Shown here: positions 2,624-38,615 of the stretch, in pieces
How the letters are laid out: every line of letters starts with the position of its first letter
Numbering within the stretch: the stretch's first letter is position 1
NCBI GenBank assembly: GCA_902580215.1
Contig: CACHJT010000001.1
Coordinates: 1-41,774 of the forward strand
Length of the DNA stretch: 41,774 nucleotides
Source of the DNA: an uncultured Candidatus Actinomarina sp.
GTDB lineage: Bacteria; Actinomycetota; Acidimicrobiia; Actinomarinales; Actinomarinaceae
Direction: 5' to 3'
Position numbers and translations under genes: made by a program
Notes under the pieces: model-generated
The model's database searches: none
Told to the model about the DNA's origin: nothing
What the model saw: only the letters and a program-made list of their open reading frames with translations

Positions 2624-2672
2624 ATATTTTTTATTTAAAGAACATAAATTATTTTTGTTTAAAGTAATTAGT

Positions 2673-3290
2673 ATGAAATATTTTATTGATTATATTTTTT
2701 TGTTAATCATTTTCCCTATTTTTATAGTTGTATTTCCAATAATTTCTTTATTTATTTTGTTATTTGATTCAGGTCCAGTAATTTACTCTCAAAAAAGAGT
2801 TGGACTAAAGGGTCAAGAGTTTAAATTACACAAATTCAGAACAATGTCTGTATCTTCAGATGAAAAAATTCATAAAGATCACTATAAAGATCTTTCACAA
2901 AATAAAAAAATTGAGCCATCCTTAACTCCTGATGATCCAATCAGAATTGAAAATGATGATAGGATCACCAAAATAGGGTCTTTTTTAAGAAAAACTTCTT
3001 TAGATGAATTACCAAATATCCTAAATGTTTTGAAAGGTCAAATGTCTTTTGTTGGGCCTAGACCGTTAGTTAAATATGAGTCTGATCTTTATGGAGAATA
3101 CAAAGAAAAAAGGAATTCAATAAAGCCTGGGATTACTGGCCTAGCTCAAATCCAAGGAAGGTTAGATTTAAGTTTACAAGAAAGACTTTACTGGGATATA
3201 AAATACGTTGATAAAAAGTCTTTTAACTACGATCTAATTATTATTTTTAAAACTATTTATTCGGTTCTCTCAGGAAGAGGAGCGAATTAA
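2673..3290 (+). CDS. Sugar transferase, PglC/WcaJ-like phosphoglycosyl transferase
   Basis: This 205-aa monotopic phosphoglycosyl transferase moves a sugar-1-phosphate from a nucleotide sugar onto undecaprenyl phosphate, the first step of a lipid-linked glycan. An N-terminal re-entrant hydrophobic segment (about 5-33) is followed by FRTM at 55-58, the catalytic Asp-Glu dyad at 111-112 within LRKTSLDELPN, and a GPRPL motif. The size matches the minimal PglC form rather than the larger WcaJ form with five helices. I chose the ATG at 2673; an upstream TTG at 2655 adds only six unconvincing residues. TAAAGT ends 7 bases before the ATG. The stop overlaps the convergent glycosyltransferase gene by 21 bases. 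Confidence 0.88.
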   Translation: MKYFIDYIFLLIIFPIFIVVFPIISLFILLFDSGPVIYSQKRVGLKGQEFKLHKFRTMSVSSDEKIHKDHYKDLSQNKKIEPSLTPDDPIRIENDDRITKIGSFLRKTSLDELPNILNVLKGQMSFVGPRPLVKYESDLYGEYKEKRNSIKPGITGLAQIQGRLDLSLQERLYWDIKYVDKKSFNYDLIIIFKTIYSVLSGRGAN

Positions 3291-14277: not shown

Positions 14278-15348
14278 ATGATAAATTATGTTGCTCATTG
14301 GGATTGGATACTGACTAAATCGCGTGGATCAATTGTTGAAAGTATTGAAGATTATGAATTTAGATCTATATGCCCAATTGATAACAAGACTGCCCTGTCT
14401 AAATATTATAAAGATAGTATTGATTGGGGAATTAATAGAACAAACAGTTTTGGATTAAATGGCATATTTAAGTTGATAAAAATACTAAAGACACTAGAAG
14501 ATAAATCAATTATTCATGTTTTTACTATAAAATCAGGCTTTATTTATATTATTTCAAAATTATTTGTAAAAAAAGATTTTAAGGCAATTCTTTCCGTTAC
14601 TGGATTAGGTTTTTTGTTTAGTAGCAATACTTTAGCTAAAATTTTGAAGACACTTCTTAGGCCAATATTCTTTTTATTAATCAATAAAATATATGATGTA
14701 ATTATTTTTCAAAATATAGATGATAAAAATACTTTTCTAGAATATTCAAGATATGAAAATCAGACTAAGTTGATTAAAAGTTCTGGCTTAGATACTGAAA
14801 AGTATGTATTAAAAAATAGTTTCAATAATAATTTAAAAGTAATTTTTGCATCAAGATTGTTAAAAGATAAAGGTGTTAATGAATTTATGGAATTAGCAAA
14901 ATCCTTAGAAGACAGTGAAATAGAATTTTTTATTGCTGGTGACATAGATCTTGGGAATCCTGAGTCTTTAAATGAAAGCGAATTAAACGAATTAAAGAAA
15001 TTAAATTATATTACTTATTTAGGATTTATAGATATAGAAAAAGAGTTACATAATTATGACGTTTTAGTCTCAATGTCAGCACATGAAGGATTTTCTAGAG
15101 TTTTACTCGAATCTTCTTTTGTAGGGCTCTATGTTGTGAGTCTAGAAAATCATGGCACAAAATTTATTTCTGAATTTGAGAATTCAAAATTAATTACATC
15201 TTTACAAATCGATAGTTTCATTGAAGTACTTGAGAATTTAAAACTAACTGATTTAGAACTTAGCTCTAAAAATCGTGATTACATAACAAAAAATTACTCA
15301 TCTAACGAAATTGCTAAACATTTTAAAAATATTTATGAGACAATTTAA
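14278..15348 (+). CDS. Glycosyltransferase family 4 (PglA/WbpX-like)
   Basis: This 356-aa GT-B enzyme has 'LSVTGLGFLFSS' in the acceptor domain, a motif seen in GT4 enzymes that act on undecaprenyl-diphosphate-linked sugars. A complete E-X7-E site is present in 'HEGFSRVLLESS'. The start is an ATG 5 bases after a TATGAT box. Its stop overlaps the next ATG (TAATG), coupling it to a WecA-like transferase. That pairing suggests it adds the second sugar to the lipid-linked intermediate made by its neighbour, which is inference from position. Confidence 0.82.
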   Translation: MINYVAHWDWILTKSRGSIVESIEDYEFRSICPIDNKTALSKYYKDSIDWGINRTNSFGLNGIFKLIKILKTLEDKSIIHVFTIKSGFIYIISKLFVKKDFKAILSVTGLGFLFSSNTLAKILKTLLRPIFFLLINKIYDVIIFQNIDDKNTFLEYSRYENQTKLIKSSGLDTEKYVLKNSFNNNLKVIFASRLLKDKGVNEFMELAKSLEDSEIEFFIAGDIDLGNPESLNESELNELKKLNYITYLGFIDIEKELHNYDVLVSMSAHEGFSRVLLESSFVGLYVVSLENHGTKFISEFENSKLITSLQIDSFIEVLENLKLTDLELSSKNRDYITKNYSSNEIAKHFKNIYETI

Positions 15349-16382
15349 TGAATAATTTTCAAATAAACATATATTTGTCTGCATTCATTGCGCTTGGATT
15401 ATCAATTATTTTAAACTATTTAATTTTTACTCTTACTAAAAATAGAAATTATCAAAATAATTCTGAAGAGGTAAGGCTATCAAAAAGAAACGTGCCTCCT
15501 TTAGGCGGTATTGCAATTGCCCTATCTTTCTTACTTTCTGTAAGACTTCTTGGGCAAGCTGATTCAAATTTTATAACTATAGGTTTGTTTGGAGTTGCAA
15601 TTGCTTTATTAGGTGCATTTGATGATTTTTTTAACCTCAACTGGAAAATAAAACTTTTTTTTCAAATTTTATTTGTTACTGTACCAATTGCTTTATTAAA
15701 TGTATTTTTAAACTTTGAGTCAATGATTGGCATAGATTTAAACAATTCATTAAATATTTTTATTTCAACTTTATGGATAGTTCTTTTAATCAATTCGATT
15801 AATTTTATTGATAATATGGACGGTTTAGCTGTTGTTATTACAGGCGGAATAAGTATTCAAATTGTAATGCTTACTTATATTTTTTCTCAAAATAAGTTAA
15901 CAGATATATCAGTTATTTTGCTTTTTACAATGCTAGGATTTTTTGTTTTCAACTTTCCTCCCGCCAAGTTGTATCTAGGGGACTCTGGAAGCCTCTTTAT
16001 AGGTTTTCTACTTGGATTTGTAAGTATTTTATTTACTTGGAATAATGCCGACAATCAGATCCTTAGCTATGTCATAAGTCCAATTGTATTATTCTTCACA
16101 ATTCCATTATTAGATTTCTTTGTAATTATGCATTACCGTATTTCAAATAAACTTTCCCCTACTACCGGTGGAACTGACCATATTTCTCATAGATTGCTTG
16201 CTTTAGGATTTTCTGAAAAAAAAGTACTTTTTCTATTTTTCATTTATTCTGTTATCAACTTTTTATTAATTATTTGCTTCGTAATGCTTGAAGGATGGCT
16301 ATCAGTATTTTCGTTTTTACTTTACGTACTGCAATTGATTGCAATTTTTAATTATTTAAAAAAATTAAAAATATTAAGTTAA
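15348..16382 (+). CDS. WecA/MraY-family undecaprenyl-phosphate sugar-1-phosphate transferase
   Basis: This 344-aa polytopic membrane protein, with roughly ten helices, transfers a sugar-1-phosphate (GlcNAc-1-P in WecA and TagO) to undecaprenyl phosphate. The diagnostic motifs are in order: 'PPLGG' in the first cytoplasmic loop, the metal-binding 'FDDFFNLNWKIK', 'NFIDNMDGLA', 'LGDSGSLFIG' and the late 'GTDHISHRL' histidine box. It is coupled to the GT4 gene before it and its end overlaps a convergent nucleotidyltransferase gene by 9 bases. It is the second initiating transferase of the window, from an unrelated fold to that at 2673-3290. It could start wall teichoic-like or arabinogalactan-like polymers. 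Confidence 0.9.
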   Translation: MNNFQINIYLSAFIALGLSIILNYLIFTLTKNRNYQNNSEEVRLSKRNVPPLGGIAIALSFLLSVRLLGQADSNFITIGLFGVAIALLGAFDDFFNLNWKIKLFFQILFVTVPIALLNVFLNFESMIGIDLNNSLNIFISTLWIVLLINSINFIDNMDGLAVVITGGISIQIVMLTYIFSQNKLTDISVILLFTMLGFFVFNFPPAKLYLGDSGSLFIGFLLGFVSILFTWNNADNQILSYVISPIVLFFTIPLLDFFVIMHYRISNKLSPTTGGTDHISHRLLALGFSEKKVLFLFFIYSVINFLLIICFVMLEGWLSVFSFLLYVLQLIAIFNYLKKLKILS

Positions 16383-17137: not shown

Positions 17138-18247
17138 ATGAAAGAAAATCGATACATAATTCTATTTGTAATCCTAATTATGGTTGGGGTAAGTGCTTAC
17201 ATGTTCTTTCCCAATTTTCAAACACAAGAATTTGATCAAAATGTAGTAGAAAACATTATGGATGGTGTAACAACAACCTCTATTAGTGAAGATTCGGATT
17301 CAAATAATACTAATAATCAAGATGGAAACACCATAATTGAAAGTCCTATTGAAAGCGAACCTGAAATTGAAAACCTACTTAATTTAAATCAAACTTTAGT
17401 TATCAAAGACAATATTACCTCTTATTTACTAATTGGATCTGACAAGAGGGGTAACGAAAACGAAGATGGCTATGTTGAAGGACAACGTGCCGACGTAATA
17501 ATTTTAGGATTTTTTAATGAGACAATTAATAAGAATGCTTTAATTTCTATTCCTAGAGATACATTAGTTACAAATCTATGCACAGGTGAAGTAGAGAGAA
17601 TTAATGCAAGTTTTAAACGAAATAACTGTGGAAATGGTGCTGAAAATATAGTTGCTGCTGTTAATAACTTAACTGGTATAAAAATAGAGCATATTGCAAG
17701 CTTTAATTTTGAAGGCTTTGAGAAAATAATTGATTCGTTTAATGGTATAGAAATTTGTGTAGAAGAAACACAAAGAGAAGGGTATTCATTCGAACTTCAG
17801 AAAGGTTGCCAGACAGTTAGTGGCTCTACCGCGTTAAATTGGACTCGATCAAGAAACACTGAAGTGCTAATCGGACAAAAAATTGTCGATGAAGATGGTA
17901 ATGATAAATCTGAATGGAAAAAAATGGAATATGTAAGTGACTTATCTAGAGTTGAAAGACAACAATACCTTGTAATTCAACTTTTAAATGAATTAGAAAA
18001 TTTTTCAAGTTTCGGCGAATTGTTACAATTTATTCAAGCACTTGAAGAGACATTTGTTGTTGATGAGGGTCTAAGCGTTAACAAAGCTACAAACATTTTG
18101 TGGAGCTTAAGGACACTGGATTTAAATAATATTGCAAAACTTACAGTACCAACGACTCCTTATCAACTCAATGATGGAAGGCAAGTATTGATTCTTAATG
18201 GTAACTTTTATGATTTTGCAAAAGAAAATCTACTAATAGAAGAATAA
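17138..18247 (+). CDS. LytR-CpsA-Psr (LCP) family envelope protein
   Basis: LCP enzymes attach undecaprenyl-linked glycans to peptidoglycan or to proteins outside the membrane. This 369-aa protein has one N-terminal membrane segment (about 7-24), an Asn-, Ser- and Glu-rich linker to about residue 90, then an LCP domain. Visible LCP motifs are SDKR at 101-104, RADV with Arg117 and Asp119, SIPRDT with Arg140 and Asp141, an 'RINASF' block and 'NWTRSRN', covering the arginines that bind the lipid pyrophosphate. It closes the polysaccharide locus and overlaps the convergent ligase-like gene by 40 bases. LCP proteins are typical of Gram-positive bacteria, which is a main clue to the lineage. Confidence 0.92.
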   Translation: MKENRYIILFVILIMVGVSAYMFFPNFQTQEFDQNVVENIMDGVTTTSISEDSDSNNTNNQDGNTIIESPIESEPEIENLLNLNQTLVIKDNITSYLLIGSDKRGNENEDGYVEGQRADVIILGFFNETINKNALISIPRDTLVTNLCTGEVERINASFKRNNCGNGAENIVAAVNNLTGIKIEHIASFNFEGFEKIIDSFNGIEICVEETQREGYSFELQKGCQTVSGSTALNWTRSRNTEVLIGQKIVDEDGNDKSEWKKMEYVSDLSRVERQQYLVIQLLNELENFSSFGELLQFIQALEETFVVDEGLSVNKATNILWSLRTLDLNNIAKLTVPTTPYQLNDGRQVLILNGNFYDFAKENLLIEE

Positions 18248-20697
18248 TATCCAGAGACTAAATAGCTTATACAAACAAATAGAAATAGTGAAGCATCCGG
18301 AGAGTAAATCAAATCATTAGTTAAGTTTTGTAAAAAGAATGCAATTAATACAATTTTTGAAAATTGATTTTTATCCTTATCAGAGAATGCTTTAAGAAGT
18401 ATAAAAAATATCAAGCTGTAAAAAATTAAAGATAGCAATGCTCCATACTCAACAGCAAATGTTAAATAACCGTTATGAGCTGTAGTTAGCTGGTTTAAAT
18501 GAGAGTTAGAGGTTATTTTTCCTGGAAGGGCAACGATTTTATCAACATTTGTTGCTAAAACTCCACTTGATAAACTCAGATCACCTACTTTATTGCTATA
18601 TGTACCAGTATTGTCTGCCCATTCAAAAAATAATCTAGAATCATAAATATACCATTTCCAAGAATGCTTTCCGGAATTAAACAGTGAAGAAGAAGAAATT
18701 AAAACTTGTTTATCGCTTGGTATGCTTGGTAGGGAAATTTCAAGGTCAACAGTAAAATCTTGGCCTGAAAGATTTAGATTTTGAGGAATTGCAATCCAAT
18801 ACTTGTTAGGTGAATATGTAATTACACCAAAATCTGTAAATTTAAGTTCATTAACATCTTCATAACTTACCAATGTATTAGGTTTGTAAAGATAAAAAGA
18901 ATCATTTAATTCATTCTTATTAAAATTTACTTCTAACAAATCCTGATTAGTTGTTATTGACAATTTAGATACTTCTCCATCTAACCAATTGTTTCCAAAA
19001 GACTGTCCATCAGCCCATCCACCAACTTCAATAAAGGAAGAGTTTTCTTCTAAATCAATATAATCTCCATATGTTTGAGATTCACCAATTTGATTCCATT
19101 CAGTTCCATTTTCTGAAATAAAAAATTCAACAATTGATCTCGGAGCCAACCCATCTTTGTATTTAAATTTCATTCTTAAAAATGCATGATAATTTTTATA
19201 TTTACAAGCTGGACATAAATTATTTAAATCTTCAATTGTGATTGCGCCTCTATACATCGCCATCTCTAGAAATTTAGATAACTCTCCTATCGTCATAATC
19301 CTATCTGGACAGAGACTTTTAAGGTCATAACTACAGTTGACCAAAAGAGAGTTTGATTCTAATGATGAAAAATACTGCAATTCAATTGGATCGACATCAG
19401 TGTATACATTTTTTGATAATTCAACCTGTGTTCCTAAACTGGTCAATTGATTATTAAAAATACATGCAAATTGAGATCTTGTAATATTTGAATCATCTTT
19501 TATGTTTTTTAAACATAATTCCTTACTTTGGCTTAATGACTGCTCATTTAAGTTAAAGTATGCAGTAAATACTTTTGATACATCGATAATCTTTGTCTTT
19601 TCTATCTGGCAAATTTTACTTTCGTCAACACAATTATCACTTAATATATATCTTTTTAAATAGCTAAACCCTTCATCAGAGTATTCATATCTATAATTGT
19701 ATTTTTCTGCACTATCTGAAGGAAAAATATCAGAATTAATCTTATTTAAATCAAAATTGAAAACATTCTTCAATTGTTGTAATTCAACAATGTAAAAAGA
19801 TGATTCAAAAGTATTGTATACATAATTTCCACCCCCGGTACCTATGAGTGGATTTATATTCTCTATTGCAATATCGCTTAAAACAGCTCTATCGGAACCC
19901 TTAAGGATAGTTTGAGGATTAAATGAAAATATAAATAAGGAAAAGACAAAAATGGATGAAGAAAAAATTACAAAAGTTTTTATATTTAATTTTTCTTTTA
20001 AATGAAAAAGTAATATTAAGGCAATTACAAATGCGATATAACTTCCTCTTGATTTCGAAAAAACTAAAGAAATTAATGAAATTAAAAACATGATTAAAGA
20101 AAATGATTTGAATATTCCTTTATTCAAAAACCATAAATTTAAAAAATATAATGAGGCCACAACACAAATAAAGCCAAATACATTTGGACCACTACCCTGT
20201 AGTCCAGCTAACCTGCCAGAAAGAAATATATTGTTTGAATCAATATTTGCTGAAACCCAACCTGCATCTTGTATGTAAATCCTGTCTCGAACTAATAAAA
20301 ATAAACTATTTACAAGTACAACAGCAGTTAGAAAAAAGAAAAAAGTTTCTTCAGTATTGTAAAGTTTATTGGCAACAAGATACTTCATGAAAAGATAAGC
20401 AAGTAGAGACATGAATACAAATCTAATATTTGTTCTGTTAAGTAAATCTATCCCGCTGGAATTTAAGAATGAGGAATATATTAGGAAAAATAATGTTATA
20501 CCAGCCCAAAAGTAATCAACTTTATTAAAATTCTTATTTTTATTAGATAAAAATTTTAAAAACAGAAACACAAAAATTCCAACTAACGGAATATCTTCTA
20601 GTCCAATTCCAAAAAAGTTGATACCGAAGTTCGGAGGAATTAAAAGAGACGAAAAAGCAATTGCTCCTAGAACAAAAATGTGTTTGTTCTTAGTCAT
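18208..20697 (-). CDS. O-antigen ligase/polymerase-like membrane protein with large SLH-like and lectin-like loop insertion
   Basis: This 829-aa protein combines a Wzy/WaaL-type membrane core with a huge external loop. About nine helices precede the loop (to about 260) and three follow (about 748-820). Core motifs are 'FSKSRGSY' (Arg217), Arg270 in 'GSDRAVLSD' followed by 'LIGTGGGNYV', and 'TTAHNGYL' with His741; ligases use a loop arginine and histidine like these. Between about 295 and 735 lies an insert with three SLH-like repeats (335-382, 383-418, 432-482; eight cysteines between 356 and 498), a beta-rich 'WLDGEVSKL' segment (500-595) and a LamG-like segment (600-715). The ATG at 20697 is preferred over a TTG at 20712, which sits one base from the tRNA. 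It likely joins or polymerises exported glycan at the cell surface. Confidence 0.75.
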   Translation of the reverse strand: MTKNKHIFVLGAIAFSSLLIPPNFGINFFGIGLEDIPLVGIFVFLFLKFLSNKNKNFNKVDYFWAGITLFFLIYSSFLNSSGIDLLNRTNIRFVFMSLLAYLFMKYLVANKLYNTEETFFFFLTAVVLVNSLFLLVRDRIYIQDAGWVSANIDSNNIFLSGRLAGLQGSGPNVFGFICVVASLYFLNLWFLNKGIFKSFSLIMFLISLISLVFSKSRGSYIAFVIALILLFHLKEKLNIKTFVIFSSSIFVFSLFIFSFNPQTILKGSDRAVLSDIAIENINPLIGTGGGNYVYNTFESSFYIVELQQLKNVFNFDLNKINSDIFPSDSAEKYNYRYEYSDEGFSYLKRYILSDNCVDESKICQIEKTKIIDVSKVFTAYFNLNEQSLSQSKELCLKNIKDDSNITRSQFACIFNNQLTSLGTQVELSKNVYTDVDPIELQYFSSLESNSLLVNCSYDLKSLCPDRIMTIGELSKFLEMAMYRGAITIEDLNNLCPACKYKNYHAFLRMKFKYKDGLAPRSIVEFFISENGTEWNQIGESQTYGDYIDLEENSSFIEVGGWADGQSFGNNWLDGEVSKLSITTNQDLLEVNFNKNELNDSFYLYKPNTLVSYEDVNELKFTDFGVITYSPNKYWIAIPQNLNLSGQDFTVDLEISLPSIPSDKQVLISSSSLFNSGKHSWKWYIYDSRLFFEWADNTGTYSNKVGDLSLSSGVLATNVDKIVALPGKITSNSHLNQLTTAHNGYLTFAVEYGALLSLIFYSLIFFILLKAFSDKDKNQFSKIVLIAFFLQNLTNDLIYSPDASLFLFVCISYLVSGYYSSISRFSFAKS

Positions 20698-20713
20698 ATT
20701 TTTTACTACCAAG

Positions 20714-20793: not shown

Positions 20794-21081
20794 CTATGAA
20801 ATTATTGATTGAACTTTAAGAGCAAGACTCATATCACCAGCAACTTTTAATTTACCAGTCATGAAAGCTGCTTGTGGGCTTGAAGATCCATCCATAATTG
20901 CTTGCATAGTTTCAGTGTCAGTTGTAACTGTACAAGTTGCTTCAATATCATCTGATGAAATTTCTCCATTTACACCATCGATAAAAACAATTGTATCGTC
21001 AGCAACAAATTTAACTGAACCACCTAATACACTGAGGTCTTTCCCTTCAGCTCTTTCTTTAACTATTGCGAGATAATCCAT
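20794..21081 (-). CDS. SCP2 sterol-carrier-domain protein
   Basis: This 95-aa protein is a single small SCP2-type lipid-binding domain. The C-terminal 'AAFMTGKLKVAGDMSLALK' is the family hallmark, preceded by beta strands that include 'VFIDGVNGEIS'. SCP2 domains bind hydrophobic ligands such as acyl chains; the ligand here is unknown. I place the start at the ATG at 21081 because GGAGG lies 6 bases before it; the ATG at 21093 contains that sequence. A perfect TATAAT at 21102-21107 sits just upstream, so the gene has its own promoter between two tRNA genes and has a conventional leader and ribosome binding site. Confidence 0.85.
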   Translation of the reverse strand: MDYLAIVKERAEGKDLSVLGGSVKFVADDTIVFIDGVNGEISSDDIEATCTVTTDTETMQAIMDGSSSPQAAFMTGKLKVAGDMSLALKVQSIIS

Positions 21082-21101
21082 TTTTTCCTCCATTCACTTT
21101 A

Positions 21102-37379: not shown

Positions 37380-38615
37380 TTAATTTTGCTCTGAGTACTT
37401 GTTAAATGCATAAAATTCATAAATTTTTTGTGCAACCATACTCAAAGATAATGCAATTGCTATACCAACAGCATCAAATTGATCAACAAAAAAGAATGAA
37501 GCAAGGATAAATACAAATAATGATATTAACCTACTTGCTGCATGGTATTGGATCAAGTTTGAAAATAAAAGTAGTTGTCGTATCCAAAAAGTATTCAGAT
37601 AAACTATAAAACCTATGGTCAAAACAAGCATTGGCTCATAGGCATCAAGAAAAGAACGCCCTGAAATAAGGTTTATCAAGTTTTCACCAAAATACACGTA
37701 TGGGATAATAATGATTGTTGAAAGAGGTAATAAAAAATTTTTAACAAGTTCAGAGAAGTTTACTCTTAAACTTTCTTTTGACAGTTGGTTTTGAACCAAA
37801 GGTGTTAAAACCGAAATGATAAATGTTATTGGTTCTACAAGTCGTTTTGCAATCCTAAAAATACCAACTGTTGATAGGTCTGTAAAATAGCCCAAAATCA
37901 CTAAATCGAAATGTTGTGGGACTATGCCTACAAGTTGATCTAACCTTTGTTTGAGAAAATCTGCTTTAAATTTTATAAAGTAATCCGATAAATTTTTTAA
38001 TGATACTTCTGAAATTCTAAAATAATTTCTGCAAATAAAAAAACCAAAACAACCGTAAACAGTTGAGAAAACTGCTTGTCCTATAAAATAATTATCTACA
38101 CTTGCATTTATACTAAACAAAATGAGAATTGTAATAAACCTCATTAAATTTGAAACTGTATCTACTAAAGCAAATTTTTTAAACTGACCATTAAAAGTTA
38201 ATACTGCTTTTGAACTCTCTGAAAGGGTTTGAAATATTCTACAAATCAACAATATATTAAGTGCGAAACTCATACTGTAGTTTCCAAATAGTGAGTTAAG
38301 TTCAGATTGAAATAATACTAAACAAATCAAATAGCAAACAAAACCAATAAATAAGTCGTATATAAGAGAAAGTGTAAACATACTTTCTCCATATTTTTTT
38401 AACATCAGTAAAGTCACATCACTATTTCTAGCATGAAGTGTCCTAAAAATTATTGCGATTAGTGCTAAAACTAATACTGCCTGACCATAACTTGTAGTGC
38501 CCAAACCTCTGGTAACAATACCAACTTGAACAAAAAGAATAACAATAATTAGAAGTTGAGAAGAAGCCAGTTCTTTTATTTCAAAGAGTAAAGTTTTTAA
38601 ATACTTAAAATTCAT
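37380..38615 (-). CDS. Polysaccharide flippase-like membrane protein (MOP superfamily)
   Basis: This 411-aa polytopic membrane protein has about 12 helices and the Wzx-like layout: an N-terminal helix followed by 'TRGLGTTSYGQAV', a central 'FDLVILGYFTDLSTVGIFRIAKR' block and a C-terminal helical half. Those motifs are shared with oligosaccharide flippases. It is the second flippase of the window besides the gene cut at the left edge. It is the first gene after tRNA-Ala on the same strand, with only 9 bases between them, and probably moves a lipid-linked glycan built by the nearby GT4. Confidence 0.82.
   Translation of the reverse strand: MNFKYLKTLLFEIKELASSQLLIIVILFVQVGIVTRGLGTTSYGQAVLVLALIAIIFRTLHARNSDVTLLMLKKYGESMFTLSLIYDLFIGFVCYLICLVLFQSELNSLFGNYSMSFALNILLICRIFQTLSESSKAVLTFNGQFKKFALVDTVSNLMRFITILILFSINASVDNYFIGQAVFSTVYGCFGFFICRNYFRISEVSLKNLSDYFIKFKADFLKQRLDQLVGIVPQHFDLVILGYFTDLSTVGIFRIAKRLVEPITFIISVLTPLVQNQLSKESLRVNFSELVKNFLLPLSTIIIIPYVYFGENLINLISGRSFLDAYEPMLVLTIGFIVYLNTFWIRQLLLFSNLIQYHAASRLISLFVFILASFFFVDQFDAVGIAIALSLSMVAQKIYEFYAFNKYSEQN

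Follow-up and report, generated by a model that had tools for sequence, protein, structure and literature searches.

A membrane glycosyltransferase of the O-antigen ligase type, encoded in a genome of Candidatus Actinomarina, carries two domains between its loop arginine and its catalytic-type histidine, namely a block related to SLH triplets and a beta domain that appears to be a circularly permuted LamG/ConA-like domain. Judging from sequence and predicted structure, we consider it about an even bet (a probability of roughly 0.5) that this is a ligase-type enzyme transferring an undecaprenyl-linked glycan, with the embedded modules binding the acceptor or the nascent glycan. By text searches of the open-licence literature we found no description of a ligase with a LamG or SLH insertion, and the domain layout, i.e. 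a ligase core with an inserted lectin-like domain and with or without SLH-type domains, appears to be undescribed.

The window, i.e. the whole stretch of 41,774 nucleotides analyzed here, belongs to a genome of about 1 Mb that is 87% complete and whose nearest named relatives are single-cell genomes of Candidatus Actinomarina. On its minus strand a reading frame is open over 18208-20712 when started from a TTG, or over 18208-20697 from an ATG. The ATG was preferred because the TTG start would abut the upstream tRNA-Met, which ends at 20713. The coordinates and residue numbering of the initial annotation are consistent with this choice: its insert, residues 295-735, equals 18493-19815, and the motifs that it quoted were located at residues 284 (LIGTGGGNYV), 344 (FSYLKRY), 405 (ITRSQF), 463 (CPDRIMT) and 738 (TTAHNGYL). 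In all 15 relatives whose flanks were compared the gene is syntenic, with an SCP2 gene and dnaG on one side and, on the other, genes for an LCP protein (placed tail-to-tail), a nucleotidyltransferase and a GT4-type transferase, together with further sugar genes. The same position in every inspected relative means that the gene is neither an assembly artefact nor a chance reading frame. The ligase and LCP genes overlap tail-to-tail by 40 bases (window 18208-18247), and a similar convergent overlap is found in relatives. The small SCP2 sterol-carrier-like frame (20794-21093, minus strand) lies between tRNA-Asn and tRNA-Met, a position kept in the inspected relatives. The gene and the parts of its membrane core are as follows.

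18208-20697, minus strand: whole gene, O-antigen-ligase-type membrane glycosyltransferase with inserted domains (829 amino acids from the ATG; 834 from the TTG at 20712)
19798-20697, minus strand: N-terminal membrane core, residues 1-300, with the Wzy_C region and both arginines (PF04932 match)
20047-20049, minus strand: codon of Arg217, the first diphosphate-binding-type arginine, invariant in 23 orthologs
19888-19890, minus strand: codon of Arg270, the loop arginine, invariant in 23 orthologs
18475-18477, minus strand: codon of His741, the acceptor-activating-type histidine, invariant in 23 orthologs and aligned to PHNSYL of the compact paralogs
18211-18483, minus strand: C-terminal part of the core, residues 739-829, with the helices that complete the fold (structure model and core profile)

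A Wzy/WaaL-type membrane core had been proposed from the sequence of the window alone, and this was borne out by an alignment of 23 complete orthologs, ten of them long (796-834 amino acids) and thirteen short (659-665 amino acids). Arg217, Arg270 and His741 are invariant throughout, and every ortholog matches Wzy_C (PF04932; best E 2.9e-8). The match of the window protein itself covers residues 203-294 at 22.7 bits, below the curated cut-off of 31.7 bits that three orthologs exceed (L030, L018 and L041, with 34.1, 33.1 and 32.5 bits). Direct searches of Pfam, NCBIfam and PDB sequences with the window protein returned just this weak Wzy_C match and LamG at E 0.09, and a PDB search with the full alignment returned nothing relevant. 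The full-length AlphaFold model (pLDDT 72, pTM 0.63) gave nothing significant in a fold search, in which aminopeptidases and ConA ranked top.

Several Actinomarina genomes also encode compact Wzy_C proteins (L212-L219, 382-397 amino acids), in most cases on the contig of the giant gene and about 11-13 kb away from it. When the insert is taken out of the giant and a profile is built from the remaining core, this profile matches the compact proteins nearly end to end, with E down to 4e-28, and they share with the giant the core and a histidine motif, PHNS[YF] in their case. They differ from it in having no inserted domains and a spacing of only 51 residues between loop arginine and histidine, compared to 471 between Arg270 and His741 in the window protein, 452-471 in the long forms and 306-311 in the short forms. 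The insert thus sits between the loop arginine and the histidine, as had been claimed, and the helices behind it (753-771, 778-794 and 800-821 in the model) do complete the core. The closest relatives (L217 and L227) have another Wzy_C protein, of 466 amino acids and with the cysteine-rich loop CPPYTPDYCSCEYYDD, at a distance of about 21 kb from the giant gene.

WaaL (CAZy GT121, PF04932) resembles the window protein in its polytopic core and in its two conserved arginines and a histidine, with arginine and histidine in the same order at either end of an extracellular loop late in the sequence. The spacing of these two residues in WaaL and PglL, computed from residue numbers, is 48-51 (R265-H313, R288-H338 and R298-H349; PMC10920833, PMC3643930), as opposed to 471 here and 306-311 in the short forms. 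Among 80 sampled genomes of the class, near-full-length Wzy_C matches span at most about 590 bases, with no comparable insert within the region. The two inserted domains are a further difference from WaaL, as is the host, in which, to our knowledge, an LPS acceptor is not to be expected. This expectation would also suit a protein O-oligosaccharyltransferase like PglL, in which the inserts would recognize a protein acceptor, and both Wzy_C and the R, R, H triad are common to PglL (PMC3643930). We nevertheless find such an enzyme improbable: none of the 23 members matched PglL_A (PF15864), even with E allowed up to 10, no pilin-like neighbor was recognized among the scanned reading frames of the window, and lectin-like and SLH-like modules suggest recognition of a glycan rather than a protein.

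The more widespread of the two inserts is the beta domain (residues ~500-735), which is present in all 23 orthologs and consists of two halves.

18925-19191, minus strand: first half of the beta domain, residues 503-591, the counterpart of the C-terminal half in LamG/ConA-like domains from actinophage tail proteins
18505-18897, minus strand: second half of the beta domain, residues 601-731, equivalent to the N-terminal half of the LamG/ConA-like phage domain

Modeled alone by AlphaFold, the beta domain is nearly all-beta (pLDDT 84, pTM 0.86), and W634, GGxxDGQS, W680 and W693 are among the positions strongly conserved in all 23 orthologs. An Arthrobacter phage tail fibre domain, which we take to be LamG/ConA-like, matches the gene in 21 genomes of the genus (5e-7 to 9e-5), with the C-terminal half of the phage domain alone aligning, onto the first half of the beta domain. 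Against a phage profile built from this domain and ten further phage domains, the beta domain in its natural order gave two separate hhalign matches in swapped order (4.2e-6 and 7.2e-6); after rotation, it gave a single alignment of 178 columns at 1.1e-10. In a rotation scan the score climbed from 45 to 74 when the cut fell between the halves, with the best cuts between columns 60 and 140, and reversed and shuffled controls scored at most 22. These alignments support the view that the domain is a circularly permuted LamG/ConA-like domain with its halves swapped. The LamG-like segments of the initial annotation have accordingly a clear homology once rotated, while in natural order the LamG match is insignificant (E 0.09) and the order of the halves is the reverse of that expected.

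The permutation is apparent only against phage domains. A Pfam scan of hand-permuted beta sequences did not extend the LamG_3 match, and PHROGs gave no consistent match across members. Searches of PDB and viral folds, made with a sequential aligner unsuited to permutations, yielded no match with E below 0.001; the best relevant ones, likewise not below that value, were to ConA (probability 0.87, TM 0.33-0.37) and to a LamG jellyroll protein (probability 0.96, TMq 0.45). In actinophages, LamG/ConA-like domains occur in tail fibre and minor tail proteins, gp25 of Arthrobacter phage Shoya being an example. Both halves of the beta domain are homologous to those of the phage domains and the total length is similar, but the halves are swapped and the domain is sited inside a glycosyltransferase. 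When the beta profile was run against 397 genomes of the phylum, only its own genome matched, and hence a donor lineage was not found among them.

The second insert is the SLH-type block, which is confined to the long forms.

19198-19695, minus strand: SLH-type triplet block, residues 335-500, with eight invariant cysteines, missing in short orthologs
19552-19677, minus strand: SLH-like repeat 1, residues ~341-382 (secondary structure of the model and alignment)
19435-19545, minus strand: SLH-like repeat 2, residues ~385-421, with the TR-type arginine kept (model and alignment)
19249-19374, minus strand: SLH-like repeat 3, residues ~442-483, with TIGE at the TRAE position (model and alignment)

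Exactly eight cysteines are invariant in every long form, and the predicted structure has the pattern of strand, strand and 12-residue helix three times, at 366-381, 403-420 and 467-482. Three similar blocks had been described here earlier. Three complete repeats are indeed present in the predicted structure, but the pieces then quoted are not equivalent, as the first covers helix 1 and the loop in repeat 1, and the other two each cover the loop plus helix 2, one in repeat 2 and one in repeat 3.

Pfam SLH (PF00395) is unmatched in the window protein and in its genome, and a PDB search with the SLH-type alignment alone gave nothing. The same three-repeat layout was found in another protein of the genus, of about 990 amino acids, which has a SpoIID domain and PG_binding_1 repeats and likely a role in wall maintenance. 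Its SLH block was detected in 35 out of 42 genus genomes (e.g. L046 6559-9507, L048 7237-10200 and L050 8608-11571; G000:C3:57003-57575 in the genome of the window). The ligase block aligns to this block with a hhalign P of 2.9e-12 over 143 columns and a score of 79, with reversed and column-shuffled controls scoring at most 17. The SpoIID block in turn aligns at 5.6e-13 to SLH triplets of a class relative, in which repeats score above the Pfam SLH cut-off; taken alone, it also matches the SLH domain of Sap, whose structure is solved, at 1e-4. Directly, the ligase block reaches the triplets of the class relative only weakly (P 0.048). By these profile comparisons the ligase block shares ancestry with SLH triplets through a chain via the SpoIID protein, not directly; the SLH repeats first proposed stand in this sense, whereas matching them directly with Pfam fails.

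No support was found for the idea that the SLH part attaches to a wall polymer as such domains normally do. The TRAE arginine and the GIIxG glycine of SLH domains bind pyruvylated wall polymer (PMC6081394), but the TRAE-type arginine is kept in one of the three repeats and the GIIxG glycine in none. In addition, PS_pyruv_trans (the CsaB family, PF04230) was found in none of the 42 genus genomes, eight of which are at least 90% complete, with positive controls. With most of the ligand residues lost and no PS_pyruv_trans gene found, the usual SLH ligand is unlikely, and a different ligand for the block is possible. Set against the SLH triplets of Sap and SpaA (PF00395), the likeness consists of the three repeats, the TR-type arginine in repeat 2 and the ancestry via the SpoIID protein, and the differences are a similarity below Pfam detection, the eight cysteines, the embedding in the loop of a membrane enzyme and the loss of two of three TRAE arginines and of all GIIxG glycines.

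Nor is the SLH-type block a fixed part of the enzyme, as it occurs in ten of the aligned orthologs and is missing from the other thirteen. In trees of core plus beta domain, membrane core, and beta domain alone, one branch parts the long from the short forms with a support of at least 100/99, and one gain or one loss of the block therefore suffices. Rooting by a nearby 7TM-HD protein made the long forms one clade (82/94) and did not fix the position of the root among the short forms, which is why both gain and loss are possible. L141, considered as an outgroup, was dropped, being a frameshifted short form near L041 and L014. A search of relatives found the protein in the genus Candidatus Actinomarina only, and across that search and the 397 genomes of the phylum the architecture was seen only in Actinomarinales.

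A patchy block without most of its ligand residues, next to a beta domain that resembles phage tail domains, could also serve to shield an ordinary ligase or be a variable decoration of its surface, e.g. under phage pressure at a glycan island, and envelope-polysaccharide genes are known to make up a variable island in this order (PMC7771536). We judge this rather unlikely, since every long form keeps the eight cysteines, the tryptophans and the GGxxDGQS motif of the beta domain are conserved in all 23 orthologs, and the gene keeps its position in all inspected relatives.

The genes around the ligase form a surface polysaccharide locus, with initiating sugar transferases (PF02397 and PF00953), epimerases, glycosyltransferases and flippase-like reading frames, as well as an undecaprenyl diphosphate synthase nearby. 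The initiating sugar-phosphate transferases are of two kinds, Bac_transf and Glycos_transf_4 (2655-3290 and 15348-16382, both on the plus strand), and their presence in one locus suggests two glycans. Two polytopic frames (18-749 and 37380-38615, both on the minus strand) have a sub-threshold similarity to Polysacc_synt, i.e. to flippases. A tRNA-rich flexible island for envelope polysaccharide has been described in this order (PMC7771536), and from the neighboring genes we infer that the ligase gene lies inside or at the edge of it.

Such a locus, of Wzx type and with the LCP gene adjoining, invites the reading that the protein is the island's repeat-unit polymerase of the Wzy type, with inserts that grip the chain as it grows and determine its length, and with LCP attaching the product to the wall. 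In Gram-positives, LCP enzymes link Wzy-made capsules to peptidoglycan (PMC7831098), and the window protein is the sole PF04932 match detected in its own, 87% complete genome. Most polymerase families of the clan, on the other hand, have Asp or Glu at the position of the ligase histidine (PMC10920833), which is invariant here. The histidine therefore favors a ligase over a polymerase, although the compact paralogs have it as well. These separate proteins, found on the same contig in several sister genomes, would be the better polymerase candidates, and we find a polymerase doubtful, if the least improbable of the three alternatives. A point against the ligase reading itself is that the neighboring LCP protein could attach the glycan to peptidoglycan.

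For the preferred reading, a ligase-type enzyme, the following course of events can be proposed. The surrounding genes would make a glycan and flip it on undecaprenyl diphosphate, and the membrane-embedded, inverting glycosyltransferase would move it to an acceptor outside the membrane; the core family (PMC10920833) implies both an Und-PP donor and transfer with inversion. Arg217 and Arg270 would hold the diphosphate and His741 would activate the acceptor. The inserted domains, probably positioned over the active site, would bind the acceptor or the nascent glycan and thus provide the enzyme with its own recognition and positioning module, which we infer from their homology and from their place between the catalytic residues. 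As to the acceptor, an outer membrane has been judged unlikely in this order (PMC7771536). A more specific version, which we put forward only tentatively, is that the loop is an acceptor-recognition platform composed of the permuted lectin domain and the clade-specific SLH-type triplet, the latter taken from the SpoIID wall protein or of common source with it, and that recognition of wall or glycan gates the transfer.

The choice of acceptor by O-antigen-ligase-type enzymes is not well understood, and low-GC marine actinobacteria have an uncharacterized wall (PMC7771536). Here, one core occurs within one genus in three natural states, i.e. compact, with a lectin-like domain, and with both lectin-like and SLH-type domains, which offers a ready comparison for the role of loop domains. 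A permuted LamG-type domain between two catalytic residues would represent one route by which a large domain can be fitted into a catalytic loop. Lastly, the hosts are a group of tiny, abundant ocean bacteria, in which the layout suggests an enzyme that bears its own target-recognition parts.
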